DNA of 64,000 nucleotides from Planoprotostelium fungivorum (Eukaryota > Evosea > Variosea > Cavosteliida > Cavosteliaceae): assembly GCA_003024175.1 (NCBI GenBank), contig MDYQ01000094.1:124001-188000 (forward strand), given 5' to 3'. This document shows, piece by piece, positions 3,001-57,608 of the stretch; within the stretch, counting starts at the first letter, position 1; each line of letters starts with the position of its first letter. The position numbers and the translations under genes were made by a program. The notes under the pieces are model-generated. The model saw only the letters and a list, made by a program, of their open reading frames with translations, was not told where the DNA came from and did no database searches.

Positions 3001-6000
3001 AAGTATGCCCTTCTCATGTATGATTCCGTCTTCGATAGACAAGGTGAGATACATCGTGGATGTATCGTGGCTCACCGTACTCTGCAGGTCCGGTACATCA
3101 CGTATTAGAACGTTATATCACTCCATTACTGCAGAACGTTCCGTTCTACCTTGATCGCCAGAATCAAGTCTTGGATTATCTGTGGTACACGGCGGAGAAG
3201 ATTCACAAACAGGCCGTAGGCCTCACCATCCAGCACGGCATTGCTACTTTCAAAGGTGACGGCCGTTCCTTTTATCTTTATTCACGCGATGTAGATTACC
3301 TCTTGACTTTACACGGTTATTATCAGGAGAAGTTGGTTACGGATAACTCGATCTTGCCTTCCGTCCCAGAAGCTTTCCCTCTCTTCACCGATGTGGGCAG
3401 AAGTCTCTCCCTCATCTACCTCGACGAGAGGGACTATTCTTCAGGTCAGGAGTTGGCAGTGGAGGAGATGATGATCCATCTCGAGATGGATGAAGAGCAG
3501 CAGAACGACGAGAGATTATTGGAGGCTTGGGACAGAGTGTATTACTGCGTCAGACAGATGAACTCGAAGCCGTCCGATCAATTCTTTCTGCTGAAGGAGG
3601 TCCTGCAAGAGATTTCGGTTTACAACAACAACGTACTGAAGTCCAGAATTCAATCTGATATGCACAGTATCGGTGAGATCGATTGTTGTATAACCTTTCA
3701 GGCTGACGATGGCTCAGGAAATGGAAGAGAGGTCATCTATAATCTGCACTACGAAGAGATATTAGACAAGTGCGCAAGGATCCATTTCGGAGATCAATAC
3801 GATGAGATCGCCAGCAAGAATCTAGACAACGCGTCCATGCTGGAAGAGATCTTGATCAACTTGTACGCTGCGAGCACGCCAGCATCGGTGCAGATGGCCC
3901 TGGTGCTCGAACTGGGTAAACTAGCAGATCTCAATTACGAGTTTCAATTCGAAGTGGCCAAGAACAAAGACTTCTCTCGCGCAAAGAAGGTGAATCCGAT
4001 GGATCATGTCATCACATCGACATACTGAGCACCCATAGGTCATCGAAGAAGGTTTGTTGATTCGAAAACACGTGGACCCTCCTTCCATCCACGACAACGG
4101 GGTGCACATCGACGATAAGACACGTCAATCCTACGAGTTGGAGATCGATTGTGCCGTGGCTCTCTCTTCGAAAGCGACAAAGTCTCCGATCGCCATCACA
4201 CACTTGATGCAAGCTTACGAGCTGAGACCTCTCTACTGGCCCTACGGAACCGAGAAGATGAAGAAGCTGTGGAACGAGATGGTCAAGGTCAAGGAGTTCT
4301 ACAGTGACACGCTGGAGAATTTGTATCGAAAGTTCACGTCCGATAAGAAGAAAGTCTTGGCTGAGACGATCACCAGCACGAAGCCGCACATGTCTGGATA
4401 CATGGTGGGTCATCGATAGATCCATTCAGATGTAGATCTGACGTGTCATGCAGATCATGAGAGTCAACAAGACGTGGCAGAAGAGATGGATGGTGCTAGA
4501 AGAGCAAGTCTTACACTTTTTCAAGAACCCGAAAGCTCTCAAATCGTCCGGAGTCATTCCTCTCAGGCAACTCGACTTTGGTACAACCGTTCCAGAAGAA
4601 TTCATTCGAATGGTACCAGAAGGCTTCGAAGACAATCTCATGACGCTGGTAACTCCCTGGCGTGGCTACGTCGTCTACACCGAGACATCGGAAGATTTGG
4701 AGCAGTGGAAGTCAGCCATCGAGAGAAGACAAGTGGACCTATCAGACGATGGACAAGACCATCTGTTGGAAGAACTGATGATCAACAAACAGCTGCTGGC
4801 CAGACACCCACTCATTCTGGACACACTGCATGCGTTGGGACAATTGTGGGACGGGCAGGAATTTGAGGAAGAAGCCGTGGTCATGTACGTATTGGGACTG
4901 GAGATCGCTACCTGCGTGGACAACGTGGAGCAATTGAAGCGGTTTTGGAATACCATCTACAATCTGATGATCAAGACGAGAAATATCTACGAGATTTTGG
5001 AATTCTTGGAACAAGAGAAAGATCGGTGGACTGCCTATGGTGAATATCTCATCCGTTACCATCCATTCATTGTCCGCAGGATTGTCAAGGGATCACTTGC
5101 TGATGCAGCTGATCGAAATGAGCACCGCACGTATCACGGAGGAAGAAGATCTCAAATTACGATACATGTACCAAATCAGAAAGTTCAAAGAGATCACAGA
5201 GGAGATCGTTCCGGCCAGAATCTACCATCTGAATCAGATCTACTCCCTCATGTTTTTGAAAAACGGAGCGTTGGAGGATGCTATCTCTCTCACGAAAGAT
5301 TCTCTGGAGCTCCTTAAGAGGCACATCTCCACCAACAAGGGTGAGCACGTTCATCTTACATTCATCGTGTTGACCGATTGTTACAGCCGATATGGATGAG
5401 TTGGCTCACTACTATCGTCTATCGACTTGGCATCAACTCGTCGTACGTCTACGTCATCACATTCATACATGATATCTGATCACAAATCAGGATTTATACA
5501 TCATGAGAAGTCGTGAGAAGGAGACAGACGGAGATTACTATGGCGGCAAGGTCCTGCTCCAATCTGTCTTCGATGACATGCCAGCGGAATCACTTGATCC
5601 ATTCAATCCTTATCTCAACAAACTTATCGACGAGATCTGTATGATGTACGACAAAGATCCAGACACGGCACCGAGGTCCTCTCAATCTGGTCTGGAGAGC
5701 GAGGCTTTCAAATGGGTGCACGCTCTGTACGTATCGTACGATGAACACTTGGCCCAAGTCTATTCTTCGGAAGCTCTGGGAAACAAGAATCTCCTTGTCA
5801 CGTACAGGAAGGCCGTGGACAGAGAATCGCTCGAGGCGAAGAAACCACAATTCTTAAAGCTGGTGGAGAGATTCCCTCACATGATGAACTTGTGCTCCAA
5901 GTTGGCTTCTGCGTACTATCTGGCTCATCAGCTAGAAACTGCTCTTCACATGACCAGGTGAGATGCTTTCAGAATCCACGATGACTGATGACGATCAGGC

Positions 6001-9000
6001 ACGTGTTGCACGTCATGATAGCCGCGATGCCCAACCGACATGCCGAGATCGATTATCAATGGAGTTTGTGCAGAAAGTATTTCCTCGCTCAGAGGTGATT
6101 TTTCTCCTTTTCCTTCCCATGTTAATCTCTCGTTCAGACACTCCAACGCCGAGATCAAGAATTTCATCGAAGAAGAAAAGTTATTTGCCACGGTGTTCTT
6201 AGCGCCCAACCACCCTCACTCCATCAAAGTCACACAGCAGCTGAAACAGCTGGAGAGCAAGATGGCTCTGTACGAGAAGTACATCCCTGCTGCAGGATGG
6301 TATCTAGCTTACGCAGCTCTTTTCGCTGGTGAGAACGTCATAATTTGTTGCTCCATTCTGAATCTTGTCAGTGTTCTTCTATTTCATCAGAAGTTACAAA
6401 GATTGGCAAACTCTGATTCACAATTACGGAACGCTGACGAACGTGTGGCTATTCATAGCGGGTCTATCACTCGATTTGGGTCTACTCACGTCAGCTATGA
6501 TCTTCATCACTTGGCCTCCGTTGCCTATTGGTGAATAATTCACTCTAATCTCACACAATTCGACTCTCACACCATCAGATACGATTCATCGAACGGCCAT
6601 CCTCTTGAAGCGGAAGAAATTAGTGCAGAATGTGGGACTTCTCATCGCTTGTCACAACTCTGCCGAAGCTTTACCTCAAACTCTCCGTGCAGCGCTGCGT
6701 ATCTTCCCACCCGAACATATTTTTGTCGGTGACAATGGAAACTCACCCAAGCCCACCGGTGATCCATCCCCGAAGCATCGATTTCATCGTGACTCATCTC
6801 TACAGATGATTCAGAAGAAGTGTGCAGGAGAATCTCGCTCGAATATCAGATACAGAATGATTTACCACCCGAGTCACCCAAAATCAACTATTTCTACATG
6901 CCAGAGGGAAACAAATCACTCGTCTTCTGGTATGGTGAGTGCTTAACGATCACACGATTATCCATTGTGAATCATCTTCAGGTGCTAAATATTACTGCCA
7001 CTTCAAATATGTCATGGTCATCGACGACGATGTGCAGCTGCCTCCTGATCTCATCATTCCAATGAAGCGTTTCAAGATCCCCGGCACGAAAGTCCTGGCC
7101 TTCACCATCTGCGCCGAAAATTTACACACGCACCAAGGAAGCCCCATTTACGTGTCCCACTGGCAGGACTTGGAGTACAAACTGGCCGGTTTCATGAAAA
7201 TGTTCCAATCGTGGGTGGGGTCAGCCATCATGGCTCACGGAGCGATTTCGATCTGGGAGAGGTGAGATGACATGACATCGACGATCTAAATCTGATCCAT
7301 CCCGTAGAACTGTCATGATGGAAGTCTTGTGGAGGCACGATACGGTGTTTCACGGTGACGATCTACAGATGGGTCTCATCCTTCAGAAATTGGGTCTCGA
7401 GTACAGAATCGACACGTGTGGAAATGTCAACGTACCGACCACCGTACCAGATCACGTCTTCTGCCCCACTCGCCCCTGGTCACTCTACTGCAAGTGCGGC
7501 AAGGATGGTAACCTGTTGGGACAACGCGTCCGATCCTGGGACGTATCTTCCCATCGATTCATTGGAAAATTCATCAACATCATTCTCTTCCATTGGAACC
7601 GCACGACCATATCGATCAAGCCGTTCTTACTGTACGAGCTGTGGAGTATCTTTCAAGATTGGGTCAGAGTGCCACTGTCCGTCACACTCTTCTTCGCCAA
7701 TCCAGTTGGATTCATCCAAGTCACTCTCATCTTCATTGCCATCGCCGTGGGACTCAACACGATCTTCAACTTTTGGGTACTGAGGAGACGACCCGATCAA
7801 CAACACCCTCCCATCATCTTCCTGCTATTCCCCTTCTACAAGCTCCTCACCATGGTCTTCCGCTTCTTGGCTCTGATTTACAACATGCTGTACTACACTC
7901 CTTTCATCCGCAATCGTCAGATCTTGGGAACACGTCAAGATCTACCGCTGGGACCAGATCACATCCGTATGATCAACCGCATCGTCAAGGAACAAGAAGA
8001 GCAGGCGGCGAGATACAGAATACTACCCAAAGACGACCACGATTGGGACATCATCTCGAAGCTCATCATCAAAGAGGCCGTCGTATCCCCTCCTCTGTCC
8101 CACTGGTTCTTATCTTGCATCACGAAATTGACGTGGAAGAAGGAGAATCCAAGGGACAAGATTCTGTCGGGCTCCCATCTCAAGAGGCTGAAACCCATCA
8201 CGGGTAGAACGGAGAAATTCTTCTACACGAAGACGAGAGACTTGTTTCAACTGGTGCCTGGGACTTATCTCACCTGCCTGAATGCCATGTGCTTCTTATC
8301 GAGAAAGGGTCGATGCTTGGGCAAGGACGTTACGAAGGCAGTCAAGATCCTCAAATGGCTCTGGGTGGAAGAGAGACTGAAAGAAAAGGTGATCGATCGC
8401 GTCGTCATCATGTGACCTGATGATGAACAGTGCAACGATCAAGAGAAGGTGGAAGAATTCATTCGAGACTATTCCGCTCGCTGTGAAAAGGGAGTGTCTC
8501 TCTACGAGTTCGTCGGCTTCATGAGAGAAGTTCTAAAGCCAACTCTACAATATCTCGACACCAGTCCACTCCTCCTATCGAACCTCTTCCACATCCACAT
8601 CGTAAACGAAGATGGACTGTGGGGGTGCAAGTCCCTATCTCTCACCTCCAGTGACGACAGACTCATCGTCCGGCACTTCCAAGCCAGCAACCTAGCCAAG
8701 ATCTTAGAAGTCATGCCTCAGTCTCTGGTCATCTTCATACCCCTTCCAACCTCAGAGGACGTAGTAGTCGAGCCCTTCAAGCCCTCCGTCGTTCACGCCG
8801 CTCTCTTCTTCAACATCGTCGAACGCTCCGTCACCATCTTTGCTCCACAAGATCGATTGGCCGACCGCATCTACGCGATCATGACCATCTTGGAGATCAC
8901 ATCGCTGCCACAATTCGACACCATCTACTCTCTGTCACCCGTGACCGCCGCCTGCAGGAAGTTGGACGCCGACGAGATCGAGAACCGAGCGAACAACTTC

Positions 9001-9728
9001 TTCTCCTCGCAGTACAAGATCCAGAGCAATGCACAATTCTTCTCGGAGACACCATACGAGGTCACGAGAGCCACCAATACGGTGAAGAACATGTTCAGAG
9101 GAGAGAAGGAGACCAGCGTCAAGAGGAACATCATGACATCATCTGGCTTCTGGTTACTACCCGTGATGGATATTTTAGACGGTCCAGTCTTGTTCTTAGA
9201 TGAGAACGACAAACCCATAGACGAGGAGATCTTCTTTGAATACTATGGAGCGCTGCTGGACCCCCTCCACGAGATCCAGTCGAGGCCGATGTCAGCTCTG
9301 AAGAGGAAGATCATGCACACGTCAGGCACCAAGTTCTTGCAGACGCTGCGACCACCGAAGGAGATGACCGCCAACGCCATCGATCAGAGGTGAGATTCTG
9401 ATGATGGGACATCTCACCTGACGGATTGTAGGTTGTCTGTGTCTGTCTTCAGGGTCACAGGAGTCGAGGAGAAGCAGTTTGAGTTCAGACTGATGGACAT
9501 CCACGAAAATTGGCAAGTGCAAGCTTGTGTCATTGATTATCTGTACATCCAAACGAAGAAGAAACGTGCTGCAGACGAAGCTGCCAGGAAGGGTGAGAAT
9601 AAGAATGCAGAAGTGAATGCAGAGATTGACGTCCATCAGCCTTGGTCTACGCTGCGAAGAAGAGGAAGGCCAAGTTACTCCAGAAACAGAGCAAGTCTGG
9701 TAAATCCAAGTCAGACAAGAAGAAGTGA
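1..9728 (+). CDS. Giant multidomain protein: helical region, PH domain, helical repeats and membrane GT2 polysaccharide synthase (5' partial)
   Basis: An exon is entered at about position 29 after a TTTCAG acceptor, so the start lies outside the window. About 20 introns of 30-55 bp can be placed with matching phase, and I find no frame-compatible stop before the TGA at 9726-9728. The product would be about 2900 residues from here. In order: about 700 residues of amphipathic helices, vinculin- or spectrin-like only in general character; an acidic linker; a helical part; a PH domain (about 4384-4730); TPR-like helices (4740-6250); then two membrane helices and a family-2 glycosyltransferase (6256-8300) with VIDDDV, HGDD and QRVRSW motifs and two more membrane segments. 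A C-terminal region I do not recognise ends in a Lys-rich tail. The GT2 part resembles fungal-type hyaluronan/chitin-synthase relatives. Two or three adjacent genes remain possible, for instance a separate GT2 start at the ATG near 6262. Confidence 0.6.
4384..4730 (+). other. PH domain within the giant gene
   Basis: After splicing out the intron at about 4404-4456 the reading is SGYM followed by IMRVNKTWQKRWMVL, then a beta-rich stretch and a closing helix with the invariant-type Trp (EDLEQWKSAI). This is the standard PH pattern (GxL...WKxRW...W in the last helix). It would be expected to bind phosphoinositides or proteins at a membrane. It sits between the helical N-terminal half and the TPR-like/GT2 half of the same open reading. 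Confidence 0.8.
6256..8386 (+). other. GT2 synthase module within the giant gene
   Basis: Two N-terminal hydrophobic segments (around GWYLAYAALFA and VWLFIAGLSLDLGLL) precede the nucleotide-sugar fold. The sequence reads VGLLIACHNSAEALPQTL, FVGDNGNS, then VMVIDDDV (DxD, metal/UDP), HGDD (catalytic-acid position) and GQRVRSW (like the Q-x-x-R-W acceptor motif of processive synthases). Hydrophobic stretches follow at about 7680-7790 and 7810-7905. This layout is typical of membrane-embedded processive beta-glycan synthases (hyaluronan, chitin, Cps1-like). The sugar used cannot be told from sequence. Confidence 0.8.
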
Positions 9729-15730: not shown

Positions 15731-16543
15731 ATGCCCGAGTGGTTGTGGACCGTTCACACCGTCAAGGTAAAGAAGGCGATTCGGCATGGTGATTGAGACA
15801 TCTTAGGAGAAGGGAGAGCAGAAAGTGGCAGAAGATACAGTCACCATCATAGAACCCAGTCCATATGTGAGCACCTGCGAAAGAGTGGCTCAAGATTGTC
15901 GAGAGAAAGTGGCTATTCACAGACTCCTTCAGCAACCAGAAGAGGAACAATGCATTCCAGACTGGTTCAAATCCAAGAAGAGGAAGGTACAATCGGAGAG
16001 TCCGATGGAAGATGCTGTCCACGAGACGCTGATGCAGTGGTCTGAGGTCAGTCGACAGAATATGCCCATGGTTGACAAGTGGGTCAGGTACTATCACCCT
16101 CTATCCATGCGAGGTCGAGAGAGTGTTCACCTCCTCCAAAGGACTTCCCCCTCCAACGTCGAACCTTTGCACCCGAAGTGGTCGATATGTTAGAAGCATC
16201 CTTCACGGAGGGAAAGAAATGGACACAGATCGAGAGACAACAACTCATCAACATGACTGGGCTCACTCGAGAGCAGCTGCAGAAATGGAGAGACAACCGA
16301 AAGAGGGTAGGACCACCCAAGAAGACGAGATCTTATCTCACCGACGCACAATACGAGAGGCTCTTAGAAGTCTATCACCATGATGGGAGGATGAGCATCC
16401 CATTAGAAGAGAGGGAGCAGCTGTCGACGGAGCTGGGGATATCGAGAGAGAAACTGAGATTGTGGATCAAGAGTCATTCATCGAGAGGAGAAGTGACGAG
16501 GAAGAGAAAGAATGTGTACAGCTGCAAGACAGAGCAGAAATAG
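15731..16543 (+). CDS. Protein with two tandem homeodomains
   Basis: The start is MPEWLWTVHTVK, then an intron and a charged N-terminal region. A short intron (about 35 bp, near 16077-16111) leads to the DNA-binding part. The first homeodomain runs RRTFAPEVVDMLEASF to LQKWRDNRKR: helix 1, helix 2 and a recognition helix with the W-x-x-N-x-R core. Directly after a KKTRS linker comes a second, more divergent one (YLTDAQYERLLEVY to LRLWIKSHSSR), where the usual Asn is not conserved. The protein would act as a nuclear transcription factor. I see no other known domain. The gene has about 240 residues and two introns. Confidence 0.75.
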
Positions 16544-17525: not shown

Positions 17526-20500
17526 ATGGACAGCTCTTCGTCTATACAAGACATGCTTGTCTCGAGGAGTAGCCAAGCGGACAGACAACATCTAGAGAGT
17601 GAGATGGAATCTCTCTGTAATGACGACGTCGATCGGATGGAGGCTTTCGATCAGCACGCGGAAACATCACAACAACAACAGGCACAATTGGAGATCCTCT
17701 GGTGAGTCAGGAGGACATCACCACCCACGTGACATTTGTATTTTAGGTACATCTTCCTCATGTTTCCTCTATATCTATTGGGGATTGGGCTGTTGTGGCT
17801 CATCAGTAGCTACGGCAGCACTTCACTTCTCGGTTACTCCACGGTATTTTTTCATATCATACAGACCATCGCTCATCTCCTACAGGACGAAGGAAAAGCC
17901 GCCGAAGTCTTTACCTTCCCGGACATCACGGTTGCCATCGAGAACAATTCGACTCAACCATTTCACGAGGCCATCATTATCCCCAAAGTACACCTCGCTT
18001 ACTCTCTGGCTCTCACCGCCTTTCTCATGATGTTGATCGGCGACGCCATCAACTACTATATGGTCGTCAATCCTCTAAAATTAACGTGAGCCCTCCATTC
18101 ATCCCTCACCAAAATTCCTCCACATTTATTACGAAATTTCTCCTCACATTTGCCCACCTTTCTCGGATATTTCTCACTCCAGTAGCATCGGCACTGTCGT
18201 CTGCTTCGTCCATTGGGTGGCTGGCTGTACATATTTCTGCCTCATCAACAACATCTTCCCTATCTGGGCGACCTCTACCGGCAGACCTCTCTATCCCATC
18301 ATCTATCTCGAGTGGTTCTTCACCACACCTTCCCTCCTCTTCATTTTGGCCAAATTGGCAGACATCGACAAGAAGAAGATGATACGAGCTGTCATGGCAG
18401 ATCAGGTCATGATCGTCGCGGGTGAGCATCTCATCCCGATCACATCGATCATCTCCATCTCATCTCGTTCCATCATCGAAAGTCCATCCATCATCCCACG
18501 TTCATCATCATGTCCGCGACAGCCTTCTAAATCCTTCAGGTTTTCTCGCGTCTTACACCTGCTTCCCTTGGAACATATACTGGGGCTTAGTCTCCTTCCT
18601 CTGTTTGTTTCCAGTCTTGTCTGCACTGAAGAACTACACGGAAGACATCGAATGCCTCATCCTCAAAGACAAGAAGACTTTCACCTTCGGAACGTTCGGA
18701 ACGTTATCTCTCATCATCTGGTCTCTGTTTCCGGCCGTGTGGTTGGCAGGTACGCTCGAGTACGTATCGTCAGACACGGAGGCCATCGTCCTCTCTTTCT
18801 TAGATGTCATCGCGAAGGTAGTCTACTCGTCTTCGGTTCTGGTGAGGCTCGTTGTAGATCGTCGCGAAATATTGAGACGGTCAGGCGAGCAATTACACCA
18901 TCAAGGAGATTTCGAGTGCAGCGAGGGAGGAGAAATTGACAGACACATTGAGAGACACGTACGATACAAATCGAATGCTGGAGACAGCCAAAATGGAAGC
19001 CGAATACGTCGCTCATCTACAACGCTCCTTCCTGGCCAACATGACCCACGAGTTACGTACACCGGTGAGTCGTGGAAATTTCCCGGAAATTTCTGAGACG
19101 AGCAGTTGAATTCCATCATTGCATTCAACGGACTACTGATGGAGGCAGACATCGAGATGCAGCTGAAAGAATACGTCGGTGCCGCCCTCACCTCTGCCGA
19201 AGCTCTGCTGTCTGTGATCAACAACATCTTACAATACGCGAAATTCGAGTCGAGCGGTGAAATATCTCTGGAGAGCTCCCACTTTGACCTCTTTCAACTG
19301 GGCGACGAGCTGGTGGACATCATCTCACCCAAGGTGAACAAGAAGGACATCGAGTTCAACTTGCACTTTGATCCACAGACGCCACAACATCTCGTGGGGG
19401 ATTCGTTTCGTCTGCGAGAAGTTCTCATCAATGTCATCGACAATGCCGTTAAATTCACATCGGTGAGTTACAATCAAATCTACAATGAAAAAACATCGTT
19501 CACATCTGTATCGTATATATGAGACGATGAAACAGACTGAACAAATGACAGACGGGAGAGGTTGCTCTACACATTCGAGTTCAAGATCTACAACAGAGCA
19601 AGGTGATCGAAATTCCCTTGACATTTCTCATCCAAGGAAAGGTCACCCTCGAATTCTCCGTTGTAGATACCGGAATCGGAATTCCGCCCTCCAAGATCGG
19701 AGTTTTATTCAAACCGTTCTCTCAATTGAACCACCAGAAGGCTTATGGAGGAACGGGATTGGGACTCGTCATTTCACAGAAGATTATCAACGCATTCGGT
19801 GGTGTCATCAACGTAGAGAGGTGATGGAGCGTCCACACATCATGATGCGATCGTCATCATCGTCATGATGATCCACGCGATCTCTCATCGTCTGTCCTCA
19901 CCAACTCATTCATCATCTCATGATCATCGTCATCATCTCTGTGAAAAAACACGCTCATCCTCTACAGTGGCCCAGGCCCAGGCACCCGCTTCTTCTTCAC
20001 CATCACACTCGACAGGAAGAACGACCCCAACGATCGAGCTCATCACATCAAAGACCTCCCAGTCTACCTTCTCGTCCACTCTGATTCCCTGCGAACTTCC
20101 CTGCAGAAGCAGCTGATCGCCTGGCAAGCGAAACCGATCTTCATACACATCAACGAGAGGGGAAGACCCACAGACTTGGGCTCCACCGTCGCAGCGTCAG
20201 GCCAGACGAAAAAGTGTGTCGTTGTAGACATGGAATTGGCGATGGATCCGGGCGTACAAGAGGTCATACGGTGAGAGACGGGTTTTAGGGTTTAAATTGA
20301 TGGGGAGTAGATCACAGAGCAACTGTACGGTTTTGGTCTTGTCTAAATTGGAGGGACAATCGGCACAATTGGCCGCGCTCGGCAAATTGGGATTCGTCTG
20401 TCAACCGAAACCCGTCAGGAGGTGAAATGTCATCGAAATCTCGCGGAAAATTGACGGAAAAAGGTCGACTCTGCTGAAGAATTTGAAATTAGCCACGGAG

Positions 20501-21651
20501 TCTGGTGCAGTGAAGAAGACCGTTACCGCGACTACAGCTCTGAACGTCCCGGATGATTATAGACTTCTCATCGTGGAAGATAATCCCACCAACATCAAAG
20601 TCATCAGTGCCATCATCGTGAGGTCGAAATTTCGCTTAAACCCTAAAACCAATGTACAGGGTCGGCTGAAAGTTCCATTTGACGTGGCCCACGACGGTGT
20701 TGAAGCCGTTGAGATGGTCCAACAGAAATCTTACGATCTCATCTTCATGGACGTAAGTACCGTACGTACTGTACGTATAATGACGTCATCAGGTACGTAT
20801 GCCACGTATGGACGGTCTCCAGGCCACCCGCCTCATACGTAAGATGGAAGTAGAGGGCAAGATTCCATCGAGATCTCTCTTCCCTCTTCCCATGGAGCGT
20901 TTCTCCATCTTGAGGTCGAACAACTCTTCTGAAGATTCACTCTTGTCTACTCTACACCGACACTACATCGTAGCTATGACTGCCTCCGTATCGGCAGAAG
21001 AGAGGGAGGAATGTCTCGCGGCAGAGATGGACGCCTTCTTCTCGAAGCCGGTGTACCCCAACATCATCAAGGGTGAGGATTTGAAATTTGAACGGAGAAT
21101 AATGGCGGGAAACAGAGATGCTGGAGAGCCACATCACGAGGAGGAAGAAGCAGAAGGCGATGGCGGAGAAATTCAACGGTAACATGTTGCAAGTCAACCG
21201 CCACGCGAGCAGCAGCCCACCCATCAACCCAGTCTCACCACTTCGTAACGCCAGCCAGCCCATCCTCTTTAAAGACACGACGACGCATGGGCCCTCATCA
21301 GCACAGCCGGCGAGGTCGGCGTTGAGAGGGAGTCGAGAGATGCACAGGGGGGTCGATCAGACGCCGATCAGTAGAACTGCGGTGTCTTTCTCAGACGGAA
21401 AGAGGAAGAGTCCGGAGGTGTGTGACGCGTCAGATGGAACGGATGAGATGCTGATGATCGACAGACGATGGAAGAAGAAGAGAAGAATGCAAAGAGAGCG
21501 AGAGGAGAAATTTGAGAACAAACACGTACGAAATAAAGAGGTCTCCTGTATGAAAAGGAGATCAAAACGAATGCTGTCTCATCTGTCTCTTCCACGTTCG
21601 AAATGGTTACGAAGACGGATGAACATGATGTTCTGTGATGACATGAACTGA
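17526..21651 (+). CDS. Microbial (type I) rhodopsin-hybrid histidine kinase with receiver domain
   Basis: A soluble N-terminus (MDSSSSIQDML) and an extra membrane helix precede a seven-helix opsin. Helix C reads YLEWFFTTPSLLF: BR Asp85 is Glu at about residue 215, BR Arg82 is Ile and BR Asp96 is Ile. Helix D reads MADQVMIVAG and keeps the Asp115 equivalent. Helix F is WSLFPAVWLAG. Helix G reads SFLDVIAKVVYS, with the retinal Schiff-base Lys at about 344. A coiled linker leads to HisKA (NMTHELRTPLNS, His at about 407), HATPase motifs (N-box VLINVIDNAVKF, DTGIGIP, GGTGLGLVIS), a degenerate receiver-like stretch, and a receiver with IVEDN, phospho-acceptor FMD and FFSKP. A basic tail ends the protein. 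Light on retinal should control autophosphorylation and phosphotransfer. About ten short introns. Confidence 0.9.
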
Positions 21652-21743: not shown

Positions 21744-22045
21744 ATGAACGACGACACTGTAACTCACGAGATCTCTCTCCTCGTCACAGCCCTTAAGAGG
21801 ATGGCTGACCCCCAACCCGATGGAACATACAAGACCACATTCATCAAGATCTTCAAAGATGAAGTCCTGGAGCAGCAGCTGGTGAGTTTGATCCATTCAT
21901 TCCTTCAGAGGAGATTAACTTGAGACAGGAATCTCTCGTTGGAACCATGAAGGCGGCTAAGAAGAGAGGAATCATCGATTTCCAGGGACAAATGCTTCTC
22001 CAAGGAGCTCACGATAACGTCGAAGTTACCCTCAAGAAGCCCTAA
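21744..22045 (+). CDS. Costars family protein (ABRACL-like)
   Basis: Two exons joined over a 46-bp intron give about 85 residues. They begin MNDDTVTHEISLLVTALKR and end ESLVGTMKAAKKRG, then IDFQGQMLLQGAHDNVEV. This matches the whole length of the Costars domain, a winged-helix-like fold found alone in ABRACL/costars and at the C-terminus of STARS/ABRA. Family members influence actin organisation and motility in Dictyostelium and animals. I chose the inner ATG because the upstream open reading lacks similarity. Confidence 0.88.
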
Positions 22046-22245: not shown

Positions 22246-23313
22246 TTATTGACCTCGTCTCCTCTTGATGACCGTGCTCACGACCCACTCGACGAAGAGG
22301 ATGAATCCGATGATGAACGTGGCGATGGCGACAGTCAGAAGGTCCTGCCGCGTGTTGAAGACGAGGTCCTCAAGATCTTTCAGCTCTGTCTCTAAAGATG
22401 CACTGAGGTCACAGTAGAACATGTTGGTCGTCCCATCCACCATTCTGCAGTCTGGATACAGAGTGGGTGCATTCTGACACAGGCTTCCCCTCGAGTAGCC
22501 GCTCATGCCGTCAAAGACTGCGAGTCCACCTACCGCTCTCACTCTCTGCACGGTGCCGGCACAGTCGGCAAATTGAAAGAAGAAGAAGGATTCGAGCTGT
22601 TTGATGTAGACCCAACCACAGACGGTTGGAATTGGACACGAGCCAAGAAGAAGTCTTGATGGAAGGGGGTAAACTCAATACGTAAGAGGATGTGTGTGCT
22701 TCCTTTAAGATGCGATAAGGACCGATCCATTTATCCGCCCATTTTGGCTTTGGACTTGAGGTCCCAAAATTCTTCGTTGATAGAAGAACTTTGTCCCTGG
22801 TTGATAGATCGGGGCTGCTGAACGATGTCGGTCAGCAAACCTCTTCATGTCCTGTCTAGCCTTTTCAAGGTTTGTTAAGCTGTAGAGGACGGTGACCAGC
22901 CATAAAACGAGATCCACCATGCTGAGCGTGAAACCGAAAAAGATGGCGAGTGTGAGGATGCCGAATCCTACTCTGTCCTCTTTGAGCTGTCCTTCGAGGT
23001 GTATGGGATAGCTCATGCGAATGCAGGTGTTTATGTCGACCGGGTACTCGTCAGACGCTCCCAGTATGAAACGTTCATCGAAAGAAAGATCTTCAATTCC
23101 GACCTGCGTGGTGTCAGGCGATCATGTGGTTGCATCGCAGCTCACCGGAAGAGAGTAATCGAAAGTGGGTGGCCTATCGAGCGTCATGGTGGTGGAGACA
23201 CCTGAGTAGATACCATATATGGATAGACCGATACCAGCCACATCCAAGATTAAGAAGAAGAGCTTGATATATTGCCTGGGGCCGAGGTTCTTCAAGAACT
23301 CAATGAGGTTCAT
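22246..23313 (-). CDS. Three-helix membrane protein of unknown function
   Basis: The minus-strand start is MNLIEFLKNLGPRQYIK, followed at once by a membrane helix (LFFLILDVAGIGLSIYGIY) and a lumenal or extracellular loop. A short intron (about 23112-23154) and a second helix (ILTLAIFFGFTLSMVDLVLWL) follow. The C-terminal part has a Cys-containing loop (FADCAGTVQRVRAVGG, CQNAPTLYPDC), a helix (LLTVAIATFIIGFILFVEWVV) and a KRRRG tail. A retroelement remnant lies between helix 2 and the loop, so the middle of the gene model is uncertain; the remnant may be intronic. I do not recognise the family. Confidence 0.5.
22650..22870 (-). mobile_element. Ty3/gypsy-type LTR retrotransposon fossil: integrase C-terminal fragment
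   Basis: A short minus-strand stretch has the texture of the integrase end of a Ty3/gypsy polyprotein: a basic segment (RQDMKRFADRHR) followed by a region matching the GPY/F subdomain. It is a small piece with no LTRs, reverse transcriptase or target-site duplication visible nearby. It looks broken, with at least two interruptions. It lies inside the membrane-protein gene above. Confidence 0.55.
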
Positions 23314-23790
23314 CTGGCTTTTTTTGATGTGTTTCGATCGATGGTCGAAGGTGTTCTGCAGCCTGCATAGTGGATGATATATCCTATAGAGTTCCACTCT
23401 ATAAAATCTCTAAACATCTCTGGTCGATGTGGCTCATGCTCTGTTGAATCTTTGTATCGAGTATCAAGGCCGATCTGTGACACGATTTCATCTAATATAA
23501 TGACGGGAGAGATCCAAGTTCGAGTAATCTCTCAACATCATGACATTCAAATTTGTATGCCACTTCTTCCGCATAGCTTTTCTCGGCCAGATGCAACATG
23601 ACCCCACACTTCAATAGATGATTCTGATACATTGTTAGTCCATCTATCCACTCTATTTGTAGAGATAGAGAAATCTTCATTGCACGGTGTTGACCTTTAA
23701 TTTCTCATACATCTGTAACGGTAAGGAGGACTCTTCGCGTCGTCGATCACAAAAGGTGAAGGATGCACATATCATTCGTGCAGTATTACT
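23314..23790. other. Spacer between membrane-protein and START-protein genes
   Basis: About 480 bp, AT-richer than its neighbours. It holds the 5' side of the minus-strand membrane-protein gene and the 3' side of the minus-strand START gene. A minus-strand open reading (23492-23680) has no recognisable domain. Nothing else is supportable. Confidence 0.35.
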
Positions 23791-52856: not shown

Positions 52857-55349
52857 ATGACGTCGAAAGATCAGAAACTAGTGGGTGTGATCATGGGATC
52901 GCAGAGTGATTGGCCAGACACCATGAAATTCGCTGCCAGCACATTGGAAGAGCTTGGAGTTTCATTCGAAGTCAACATCGTATCAGCACATCGCACTCCT
53001 GAACGTCTGTTTGAGTATGCCAAGACTGCCAGGTCCAGAGGACTCAAGGTGATGCCAGATGCATTGTGTATCATCCATTGATTTCTCCAGGTAATCATTG
53101 CCGGTGCGGGAGGAGCGGCACATTTGCCTGGAATGGTTGCCGCATTGACACCTCTTCCCGTTTTAGGTGTGCCCGTTCAATCCAAGTGAGTGATTGTATG
53201 ATACGATGATTAGACAGAGCTGATGACGTCCAGAGCACTCAGTGGTATGGACAGTCTCTTGTCCATCGCCCAGATGCCGGGAGGTGATACCACACCATCT
53301 CGTAATCTTCTACATCGTGACACTCAGAAGGAATCCCTGTCGGCACATTGGCCATCGGTAGAAGCGGTGCCATCAACGCAGCTCTCCTCGCAGCTTCCAT
53401 CTTGGCATCCTCTGGAAATCATCCAGACATCTCGCAGAAATACGACGAGTACAGATCGAAACAGACAGAGTCTGTGAACCTTGTTCCTGTGGATGAATCT
53501 GCAAAGTCTCTCCTCTCTCACGCTACATCATCCTTCACACCAACATCAAACACATCTTCAACGTCGGTGAGTCTCACACCATCAGGTCACGTCTAAAGAG
53601 GTTGATCTCACGACAGGAAAAGAAGGTGGAGACTACCGAGAAGATCGTCACGAAGGACAGGTGAAGATGATGTCCATGTCGATGTGAACACGGAATCACT
53701 ATGTCTTAGGAGTGCCAGAGTGATGACCGGAGGAAACATCGGAATCATCGGTGGAGGTCAGTTGGCCAAGATGAGTGCCATCGCCGCCGCTTACCTCGGT
53801 TACAAGGTGAAACACCTTTATCATCGACTCATCTCATTACTTAAGTGTGAGATGTGTTCGTCTGACGACATCATCTCGTGCCATCGGCATCATAGAGGAC
53901 TGGTCTGAATAGAATGTAGGTTTGGATCTACGCACCTGAGGAAGATCCCCCAGCCTCCCACTCCTGCTACAAGTGAGTCCACAATAAACTTTAAAATAGA
54001 ATAAATGACGACGAAAAGGTACGTGAGGGCAGAGTACGACGACGCAGAGGCGCTCAGAAAATTCGCAGAGAGCGTGGATGTCATCACTTACGAGTTTGAG
54101 AACATCCCTCCCTTCACTCTACAGACTCTTGACAAGTACTCACCCGTCAGACCGAAGCCACAGGTGAAGTCATGTTCGGTCGATCGACGACATCATCGAC
54201 ACATGAGACATGTTTAAATGAAATAAAATGTGATTTCTGACGATATGGATGCAGGTCAACGCCATATGCCAAGATCGCTACGCAGAGAAATCTTTCGTTA
54301 AGAATCTCGGCATTGCCACCGCCCCATTCGAGAAGGTCGGTTGTCCACTCTTTTCACCTCCCCCTGAATCAATTCGTACAGGTCAAGTCCCTCGAGGAAT
54401 TGAAGGAGAGCCTCTCTAGAATCGGATTTCCCTCCGTTCTCAAGTCCAACAATTTTGGTTACGATGGAAAAGGTATTTCAAGATGAAATTTCAAGATGAA
54501 ACGTTCAACTTGAAATCTCGAGTTGAAGAGAGACAGGCCAGCACACGATCAAGCAGGAGAGTGACATCCCTGTGGCTTGGGAGAAGATGGAGTCGGTCAA
54601 ATCAGAGTCAGCCATCTTAGAGGGCTTCGTAAACTTCACCATGGAGGTGATCATGATGAGCGTGTCTGCATCTAACGAGAGGAGGTGAGCGTCTTGGTGG
54701 CCAGAACTTTGGACGGACAGAAGAAGACGTTCCCCGTTGTAGAGAATAGACACGAGAACCACATATTGAAGCAGACTATCGTTCCTGCACAGGTGACACA
54801 GTCAAGACAACCATCATCGTCATCATCAAAGACAATCACCACCTTCAACTTCACATCATCATCAATCATCACATCACCGTCATTCAATAGTGCGATAGGT
54901 TTCAGAGGAGACAAAGAAGAAGGCGACGGACATCGCCCTGGCCATCGCAGAGGCCTTCGATCTCGTCGGTCTCGTTGCCGTAGAGATGTTCATCAAGGCC
55001 GACGGCAGCGTAGTCGTCAATGAGATGGCGCCCCGCCCTCACAACAGCGGACATTGGTCCATAGAAGGTTGCCAGACGAGTCAGTTCCAGCAGCACATCA
55101 GGTTCTACATCACATCATCTTCTTCATCTCGTGTGCATGTGTTGATGATGGGGCAGGGCGGTCTGTGGCTTACCTCTTGGAGATACAGAACCGTTGGGAG
55201 AGGGAAAATGGATGATGGAAAATCTGTTGGGAGATGAGATCAATCAATGGATGAAGCGATTAGAAGATGGAGAGTCCGTGCACGTGTATGGAAAGCCGGA
55301 GATCAAGCCCGGAAGAAAGCTGGGTCACTCGACTAGGGCACAGAAGTAA
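52857..55349 (+). CDS. PurE-PurK fusion: phosphoribosylaminoimidazole carboxylase
   Basis: The N-terminal half is class I Pur[68 protein letters not shown] linker ([13 protein letters not shown]) over two phase-matched introns leads to PurK, an ATP-grasp enzyme: [60 protein letters not shown]. Together they convert AIR plus bicarbonate and ATP to N5-CAIR and then CAIR in purine synthesis. The E-then-K order is the reverse of fungal/plant ADE2 (K then E) and matches the bacterial purEK operon. The linker carries no stop, so a fused protein is the simplest reading. Confidence 0.87.
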
Positions 55350-55595: not shown

Positions 55596-57608
55596 ATGAA
55601 GTTCAACTGCATCGTCCTCTTTGTGGTCCTCGCGGCTGCCGCTGTCGCAGAACAAGCCTACCCCGCCAGACTCTGCGTCAGTCACAAGCCCATCCGTCCT
55701 CTGTCGAGAACTGCATTGCCTGGCTTCTCCACTGCCTTCTCACAGAACGGACTCGACTACTTCCGGGGAGTAGGGCTTCAGCTCCTGTCTGAGGTAACAT
55801 TATGATTCAATCTGCGACGATGCATTCGGCTCACCGATTCAGAAACTGAATCACTTGAAAGTACCCGACATCACTGGTGTTGCGAAGGTTTGGCCCGCCA
55901 AATTCAATTACAATGTGTCCAGCATCCACTTGGAAGACGTCGACCTCTCTTCTTCCACCATCGAGATCGTCCCAGGTGTCGGTCTGTCCATCACTGTGTG
56001 AGTTTCATCACCTCTACCGACGTCTGAATCATGTTTCAGGACGAAGGGCTCTACCAAGGGTGACTTCAACTGGCACTGGCAACAACAGGGAATCATCCAT
56101 CCTCATGGAACTGGAACTGCTAATCTGACCGTGGCTCTATCAGCCAACATGAAGTTCACATTTGCCGCCGTGAACGATCACCTTCAACTCGACGCTGTGG
56201 ACCCCACCGTGACCATCGACACATTACAAGTTCACGTCAACAGCAAGAACAGGTGCATCTGATCATCTCCATCGACAACATCTCACCTCCATCAGCTGGT
56301 TCTACAACTTCCTCATCGAAGTCCTCACTCCCGTCTTAAAGAACAACATCGCCAACCAATTGAACAAGGCCATCCAGACCACCATCGAGAGTGCGTATCA
56401 CATCATCATCATATCATCATCCAAAGCCATCTCGTCTCATCCGTCGCGCAGGCAAGCTGAACGAACTCCTCCTGAGTGTTCCCATTCGCCAGACCATCCG
56501 ATCACCTCTCATCTTCGACATCGGCCTCTTACGAGACCCTCAGTTCAGCGCGGACAGTTTCAGATTATACGAGTCGGGAGAGTCCTACGATTCATCCAAT
56601 GTCACTGAATGTCCAGACCAAGTCTGCGTCCAGAGAGTTCTACCAGACACTACGACACAGAGGATGGCTCAAGTGTACGTGTCTGATTACGTGGCCAACT
56701 CGATGGGTTACGCTGCCTATCTGTCCGGTGAGCATTGAGAAACTGCATCGTCTGAAAGATTAAAATGACGTGAAATTCGATTTTAATTCGATTTTACAGG
56801 TATGATCGCAGCTCAAGTGACGCCCGATATGGTGCCCTCCACCAGCCCCTTCAAGTTAGACACTGGCTCTCTGAAAGGTGAGTTTCGTAAATCTTCTCTG
56901 TCATGATGGAGAACGCAGCGGTCCTCCCCCCTCTCTACGAGAAATACCCCAATTCACCTGTTATCTTGAACATCTCTGCATCACGCCCGCCGGCCGTCAC
57001 ATTCAACTCCACCGGTGCGTTCAAAAACATCTTCATCATCTATCCACGTCATCATCATCCACCATCACATCACGATCGAGATGAACTCCATCTCGATCGC
57101 GATGTGACGATCTCGACTCCCATCATCATCGACTGATGCGAGACAGGTGTGACCGTTACCGTCTTCCTCAAGATCGATTTCTACGTCGAAACGAGCTCCG
57201 GAAGAGTCTACGCTCTCTCCGTCCAAGGCGATATCTCCGGCCCCGCCACGGTGATCTCTCTACAAGGAGCCACTCCTGACCCACACCATAGGTCTTGACG
57301 AACAACTCGATCGTCTATCCCAAACTTGGAAAGTTTTTACCTCAAGATTGGGTCGTCTTAGAATCGAGCATGGGAGACATCAACATTGCAAAGTTGACCG
57401 GAGCCATCAAATTCATCGTCTCTTATGCCGTCAACAGTGAGTCGGTCTCATCGATCGGGTGATGATGATGACAGCTCTCAACATCAAGTATGCGAGCGGT
57501 GTGTCACTGCCCACCGTGGACGGTTTGGAGTTTGTCAACCCCACTCTCAATCTCTCTGAGGGATTTCTGTCTCTGGAAGTTGACTTTGTCTTTCACCCTT
57601 CTTCTTGA
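55596..57608 (+). CDS. Secreted BPI/LBP-family lipid-binding protein
   Basis: The start is MKFNCIVLFVVLAAAAVAE, a clear signal peptide. The mature part begins with the family pattern LPGFSTAFSQNGLDYFRGVG and LQLLSE, then LKVPDITG and LSSSTIEIVPGVGLSITV. The two-barrel layout follows, with WFYNFLIEVLTPVLKNNIAN closing the first half and VLPPLYEKYPNSPVILNIS in the second. About 480 residues, similar to BPI/LBP/CETP. These proteins bind lipid A or other lipids; in a bacteria-eating protist a role in prey killing or lipid handling is plausible but inferred. About ten short introns. Confidence 0.85.

Follow-up and report, generated by a model that had tools for sequence, protein, structure and literature searches.

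A predicted single gene for a histidine-kinase rhodopsin, probably a green-light phosphorelay sensor, in contig MDYQ01000094.1

The DNA considered here is a stretch of 64,000 nucleotides (nt) from contig MDYQ01000094.1 (positions 124,001 to 188,000 of the forward strand), called the window below; all coordinates are those of the window. A gene on its forward strand, reaching from the ATG at 17526 to the stop at 21651, very likely encodes a histidine-kinase rhodopsin (HKR) that would work as a light-driven phosphorelay sensor, probably one for green light. A type I opsin, a hybrid histidine kinase and a receiver are found in one predicted gene, as a sequence-only reading of the stretch had proposed, and the domains, their order, and the catalytic and retinal residues are all seen in its spliced product. 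Profile comparison, which that reading had recommended, places Bac_rhodopsin, HisKA, HATPase_c and Response_reg all well above the Pfam cut-offs. This class of sensor is already known, mainly from algae, and the window gene adds another HKR to it, judging by its sequence features. Retinal binding, the colour absorbed, the sign of light control and the phosphorelay partners are what we infer from them.

The opsin domain (helices A-G, residues ~138-355; 17982..18893, + strand, introns inside) is matched by Pfam Bac_rhodopsin at residues 148-349 (E=1.6e-18, far above the cut-off), and its top structure match is the bacteriorhodopsin entry 3hap_A (phmmer, E=1.7e-14; best 60 of 107 distinct sequences). 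The motifs singled out by the sequence-only reading are all in frame once the transcript is spliced: helix C LEWFFTTP at residue 214, helix F WSLFPAVWLAG, and helix G FLDVIAKVVYS with Lys344, the retinal lysine. The HisKA, HATPase and receiver motifs that it listed are present in the same spliced frame (His407, the N, G1 and G2 boxes, and Asp841).

The HisKA dimerisation and phosphoacceptor domain (19020..19252, +; Pfam match at residues 398-461, E=2.9e-15) has an H-box, FLANMTHELRTP, that contains His407 (19047-19049). The HATPase_c domain (19397..20010, +; residues 510-635, E=1.3e-24) shows N, G1 and G2 boxes in the motifs NVIDNAVKFT, VDTGIGIP and GGTGLGL. In the receiver (20564..21117, +), the Pfam Response_reg match covers residues 794-863 (E=2.5e-21), the phosphoacceptor Asp841 is encoded at 20750-20752, and the C-terminal half has MTA and SKP motifs. 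By sequence, the catalytic motifs of both kinase and receiver are retained. The best structure matches of the kinase-receiver part are 7p8e_A (E=4.2e-50), 7z8n_A (7.7e-45) and 6qrj_A (1.9e-42) among the best 60 of 152 distinct sequences. We take 7p8e to be a plant cytokinin-receptor-type kinase and 6qrj to be ShkA of Caulobacter. An insert of ~40 residues precedes AMTA in the receiver, and 7p8e_A has fewer extra residues at the same place.

Between kinase and receiver, residues ~645-765 (20038..20482, +) tentatively form a degenerate receiver. They lie within one phmmer alignment to 6qrj_A that runs unbroken through kinase, receiver-like region and receiver; Asp708 at the phosphoacceptor place and the Lys of QPKP are kept, and the acidic pair is lost. 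Searched alone, this region gave no Pfam receiver and no PDB match, each up to E=10. The protein ends in a basic tail with no known domain (residues 936-1112; 21118..21651, +), of which residues 960-1112 gave zero Pfam matches up to E=10. Pfam scans found no cyclase domain, either in the full-length protein (E up to 0.1) or in the tail (E up to 10). Sub-cut-off Pfam matches to CrgA and PAH_ZNF598 (N terminus), Peptidase_A3 (receiver-like region) and PDE8A_N (receiver) were set aside as chance or receiver-like similarity.

Gene structure and native character

The gene model was obtained by picking exons by eye, splicing and translating them. Removal of 12 GT-AG introns leaves 13 exons on the + strand (17526-17701, 17747-18085, 18183-18421, 18540-18841, 18885-19064, 19106-19462, 19552-19820, 19968-20270, 20311-20421, 20464-20617, 20660-20752, 20793-21072 and 21116-21651) and a predicted product of 1112 residues. 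The introns measure, in order, 45, 97, 118, 43, 41, 89, 147, 40, 42, 42, 40 and 43 nt (median 43). They strongly prefer the donor GTGAG (9/12; GTGAT, GTGAA and GTAAG occur once each), and their acceptors are CAG (9/12), TAG (2/12) and AAG (1/12). The sequence-only reading had described one open, phase-matched gene. The parts are indeed in frame after removal of the 12 introns; the frames of the unspliced span are closed by 45, 39 and 30 stops, so the word "open" holds only for the spliced form.

A simple Viterbi-type gene finder, for which the rhodopsin gene itself served as training set, found 11 introns with lengths identical to those of the by-eye model and a later start, the ATG at 17637. 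Its protein equals the by-eye protein from Met38 onward, save for 14 residues contributed by intron 20618-20659 (42 nt, in frame), which the finder retained. This intron is removed in the model because the spliced receiver, the form that was aligned, matches 7p8e_A without a gap at this point. With one and the same gene used for training and for prediction, this agreement is a consistency check and no independent proof. All domains are predicted to lie in a single gene, with introns consistent with this.

Codon usage and introns match those of the neighbouring genes. The codon frequencies correlate at 0.85 with those of the other predicted window genes scoring above 25, and the G+C content at third codon positions (GC3) is 0.63, with 0.55-0.71 in the 22 other models. 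Genes in the window are compact in style, with several introns to a gene, often of 38-50 nt. This is unlike Acrasis kona, whose intron-containing genes have 1-2 introns on average (PMC11589745) and which is thought an unlikely source. An alignment search of prokaryotic genomes with the opsin gave 518 stretches and 131 relatives, and the best 80 of these 131 were examined. H-box and G2-box motifs downstream in the same frame were found in none of the 80 opsins; 79 of the frames end no more than 80 residues past the opsin match and are therefore too short for a kinase, and the other runs off its contig end. In viral contigs, neither the single-protein opsin search (14 pattern stretches; tblastn, E<=1e-3) nor the alignment search (114 stretches) returned a relative.

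These data bear on the possibility that the gene was recently acquired from an alga or a prokaryote by horizontal transfer, or is contamination from such a source, and is no native sensor at all. The relatives tabulated in PMC7693036 are described as algal, which would suit an algal source. However, 12 introns in the style of the neighbours, the codon correlation, a GC3 within the local range, a Costars gene that follows 92 base pairs (bp) downstream on the same strand, and the absence of kinase motifs from the 80 prokaryotic opsins, one of them cut by a contig end, all speak for a native gene, and a recent foreign origin is unlikely. An old transfer is conceivable.

Retinal pocket, membrane topology and the opsin-kinase join

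In an alignment of the opsin with bacteriorhodopsin (BR) and 6lm0, Lys344 (codon AAG, 18815..18817, +) occupies the position of BR Lys216, to which retinal is attached; this lysine, on which the sequence-only reading depended, is thus present in the predicted spliced frame. Glu215 (18310..18312, +) is at the position of BR Asp85 and is the predicted Schiff-base counterion. The residues at BR 82, 85, 89, 90, 96, 204, 212 and 216 are Ile, Glu, Thr, Thr, Ile, Glu, Asp and Lys, respectively; the W...P.VW residues of helix F are retained, and the BR194 site sits in a two-residue gap of the opsin. The BR93 site, which we take to correspond to the tuning site 105 of proteorhodopsin, is Leu. The features of a proton pump are lacking, as the carboxylate donor position BR96 and the Arg82 position are both Ile. 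The Ile at the donor site speaks against a pump, and the sensory rhodopsins tabulated in PMC7693036 are consistent with it.

Nine segments that are hydrophobic or helical lie ahead of the kinase: TM0, a transmembrane helix at the N terminus that is additional to those of the opsin, a helix at residues 83-110, and helices A-G. TM0 (residues 61-80; 17751..17810, +) is not part of the Pfam opsin match, which begins at residue 148. Its hydropathy is 2.22 (residues 61-79), and a single-sequence AlphaFold2 model restricted to exon 2, of low confidence (mean pLDDT 63), has three helices that include residues 61-80. The helix at residues 83-110 has a borderline hydropathy of 1.39 and is strongly amphipathic, its hydrophobic moment of 1.4 being the largest among the nine, which suggests that it is interfacial and that the transmembrane helices number eight. 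A nine-helix topology, in which the 83-110 helix of the exon 2 model would also cross the membrane, is disfavoured by this strong moment, although the matter is not settled. An arrangement of eight transmembrane helices, the number in type Ib opsins, is likely; the cytosolic N terminus of that type is not favoured by the acidic N-terminal residues described below. Eight helices have been concluded for COP5 and the 2c-Cyclops, and are reported as most likely for BeCyclop (PMC6284317).

Helix G is joined in frame to the kinase linker by removal of intron 4 (18842..18884, +; 43 nt, donor GTGAGG, acceptor CAG). The putative signal-transmitting linker consists of 42 residues (356-397; 18894..19019, +) between helix G and the start of the Pfam HisKA match. 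If this intron were left in place, the opsin frame would continue for 84 residues to a stop at 19096. The kinase frame is open from 18876, and its first ATG encodes a Met late in the linker.

Several observations weigh against a light-driven sensor encoded by one gene. The fusion of opsin and kinase rests on the predicted 43-nt intron, and between Lys344 and the H-box there are 43 frame-preserving GT-AG pairs of 30-300 nt, so that 42 others would keep the frame as well; in the list of these pairs, 18842-18884 is the only one with both GTRAG at the donor and YAG at the acceptor, and the join is well predicted. Arg82 of BR is replaced by Ile in the opsin. The N-terminal 58 residues include 13 acidic and 3 basic ones, and a cytosolic N terminus misfits the positive-inside rule. 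The heptad periodicity of the linker is weak, with a hydrophobic fraction of 0.53 at the a and d positions in the best register.

The changed Arg82 position and the weak periodicity of the linker would also suit an opsin that is no longer a photoreceptor and that, vestigial or without retinal, forms the membrane input of an otherwise functional hybrid kinase. A vestigial domain, however, would not be expected to keep the pocket residues, and the retinal Lys, the Glu counterion, the helix-G Asp, Thr89 and Thr90, and W...P.VW in helix F are all retained, which makes such a degenerate input quite improbable. It is highly improbable that an opsin gene and an adjacent hybrid kinase gene were wrongly merged and that 18842-18884 is no intron, as the predicted nature of the fusion and the 84-residue extension of the unspliced opsin frame might suggest, since a canonical GTGAG...CAG intron of a length typical of the window links the two frames, the gap between helix G and linker leaves almost no room for the end of one transcript and the start of another, the kinase frame from 18876 lacks an ATG ahead of the late-linker Met, and the algal Rhod-HKs share an identical domain order.

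Proposed mechanism and related rhodopsins

As a light-driven phosphorelay sensor, the protein would bind retinal at Lys344 through a protonated Schiff base, for which Glu215 and the Asp of helix G would be the counterions. The chromophore would absorb light, probably green, and isomerise; helices F and G would shift, and the linker would relay this change to the HisKA dimer, where autophosphorylation of His407 would be altered by light. The phosphate would be transferred from His407 to Asp841 of the attached receiver, and from there probably on to response regulators by way of a separate phosphotransfer protein. Transfer to separate partners is proposed because no output enzyme is recognised in the protein itself. 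In Cr2c-Cyclop1, mutagenesis showed that in darkness the kinase hands a phosphoryl group on to the receiver; illumination inhibits the cyclase, and inhibition of this transfer is the most likely cause (PMC6284317). By analogy with these algal 2c-Cyclops, the window protein may be light-inhibited too, which is a reasonable guess at the sign of control.

The comparison with algal HKRs was made through published descriptions and residue tables. The sequence-only reading had compared the gene with enzyme rhodopsins known mainly from green algae (HKR/COP5) and some other protists. That it belongs with the histidine-kinase rhodopsins is upheld. Among the architectures described, the closest is that of the cyclase-less Rhod-HK/Ot-HKR of Mamiellales, which are small green algae; COP5/HKR1 has a cyclase and Met at the counterion position. 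The Mamiellales Rhod-HK combines rhodopsin, HisKA, HATPase and REC in one protein and is described as a green-light photoreceptor; in Ostreococcus, a possible target of its signal is TOC1, a response regulator (PMC12704426). The domain order is shared with the window gene, and no cyclase is named for Rhod-HK there. At BR 85, 89, 90, 96, 212, 204 and 216, OtRh1 (Ot-HKR) has Glu, Thr, Thr, Leu, Asp, Glu and Lys; MpuRh1 has Glu, Thr, Thr, Ile, Asp, Gln and Lys; and Cop5 has Met, Thr, Thr, Leu, Asp, Glu and Lys (PMC7693036, Table 2B). The window opsin is the same as OtRh1 at 85, 89, 90, 212, 204 and 216, with Ile instead of Leu at 96; this Ile is common to MpuRh1, which differs at 204 (Gln, Glu here). 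The Glu at BR85 and the match of the pocket point to the acidic-counterion type, as in Ot-HKR, which has been termed green-absorbing (PMC7693036). Unlike Rhod-HK/Ot-HKR, the window gene is intron-rich, and its product has the two-residue gap at BR194, the basic tail of 177 residues and the tentative degenerate receiver.

COP5/HKR1 and the 2c-Cyclops of Chlamydomonas and Volvox resemble the window protein in that one more transmembrane helix precedes the opsin and that histidine kinase and response regulator are both present (PMC6284317). It differs in having no guanylyl cyclase, the domain that would make it a 2c-Cyclop, and in its length, 1112 residues against 2549 in Cr2c-Cyclop1 and 2210 in Vc2c-Cyclop1 (PMC6284317). 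The counterion is Glu here, Met in Cop5 and Gln in Cop6 (PMC7693036).

More distant comparisons reach beyond green algae. The names GtRh4-10 presumably refer to Guillardia theta, and BgRh in PMC7693036 is probably from Bigelowiella. Predicted HKR genes are reported from the cryptophyte G. theta, outside the green algae (PMC7714340), and by the table alone BR85 is Gln in the GtRh4-10 rows and Glu in the window opsin (PMC7693036). The rhodopsin-guanylyl cyclases and rhodopsin-phosphodiesterases of fungi and choanoflagellates are enzyme rhodopsins that share Glu at BR85 and Asp at 212; their effector is a cyclase or phosphodiesterase and BR90 is Cys, whereas the window protein has a kinase and Thr (PMC7693036). 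In the sensory rhodopsin-transducer systems of haloarchaea, too, a histidine kinase receives the light signal of a type I opsin; there the coupling is indirect, via Htr transducers (PMC6798134), whereas here the two would be fused covalently. The Hyphochytrium rhodopsins are type I rhodopsins, for which the available part of PMC5795050 mentions no kinase.

The HKRs described in the sources consulted come from photosynthetic algae and have been discussed as light input for circadian or behavioural responses (PMC7693036, PMC12704426, PMC7714340). Among the matches listed, mostly judged by title or the start of the abstract, no report of an HKR in a non-photosynthetic protist was recognised. It is possible, though far from assured, that the gene is a native green-light HKR of a heterotrophic, plastid-lacking amoeboid or flagellate protist, so that the class would not be tied to photosynthesis and would be older or wider than the algal record. 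If the host has no plastids, such sensors would serve cells that do not photosynthesise, and the find would be clearly more interesting. A compact version from another lineage that lacks a cyclase and keeps both the acidic counterion and the receiver intact could serve as a simpler test case for the switching of a histidine kinase by a rhodopsin, and possibly as an optogenetic input to phosphorelays.

Neighbouring genes

The Pfam scan of the neighbourhood covered 16 of the 22 other models (some in part) and one further frame; 3 of the 16 models had no Pfam match. The genes recognised are all ordinary eukaryotic ones: PH + glycosyltransferase, fatty acid desaturase, homeodomain, Costars, MTR4 helicase, Sin1-like, phosphomannomutase, PurE-PurK, BPI/LBP, EGF, L-type lectin, WD40 and G-patch. 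No photosynthesis families were found in these 16 models and one frame, a result that says little on the whole genome. Neither a tRNA nor an Rfam match reaching the gathering score was found in the window, and a scan of it for bacterial-type promoters and terminators was uninformative for this kind of DNA.

Directly upstream of the rhodopsin gene, an open frame at 16076-16543 (+) has a homeodomain (E=3e-12). Downstream, 92 bp past the rhodopsin stop, the short Costars-domain gene (21744-22045, +; E=1.4e-23) is predicted to have one intron of 47 nt. It is followed on the opposite strand by overlapping frames at 22246-23409 (-), for which no model was predicted and which by eye have membrane-like hydrophobic stretches. 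The model at 4448-9728 (+) combines a PH-domain part with a family 2 glycosyltransferase and possibly represents two genes merged by the simple finder. The BPI/LBP-type protein is encoded at 55596-56262 (+), and the next model, 56664-57608, may continue it. At 52857-54486 (+), a PurE-PurK fusion is predicted in which the AIR carboxylase precedes the PurK part; fungal and plant PurE-PurK fusions have the opposite domain order.

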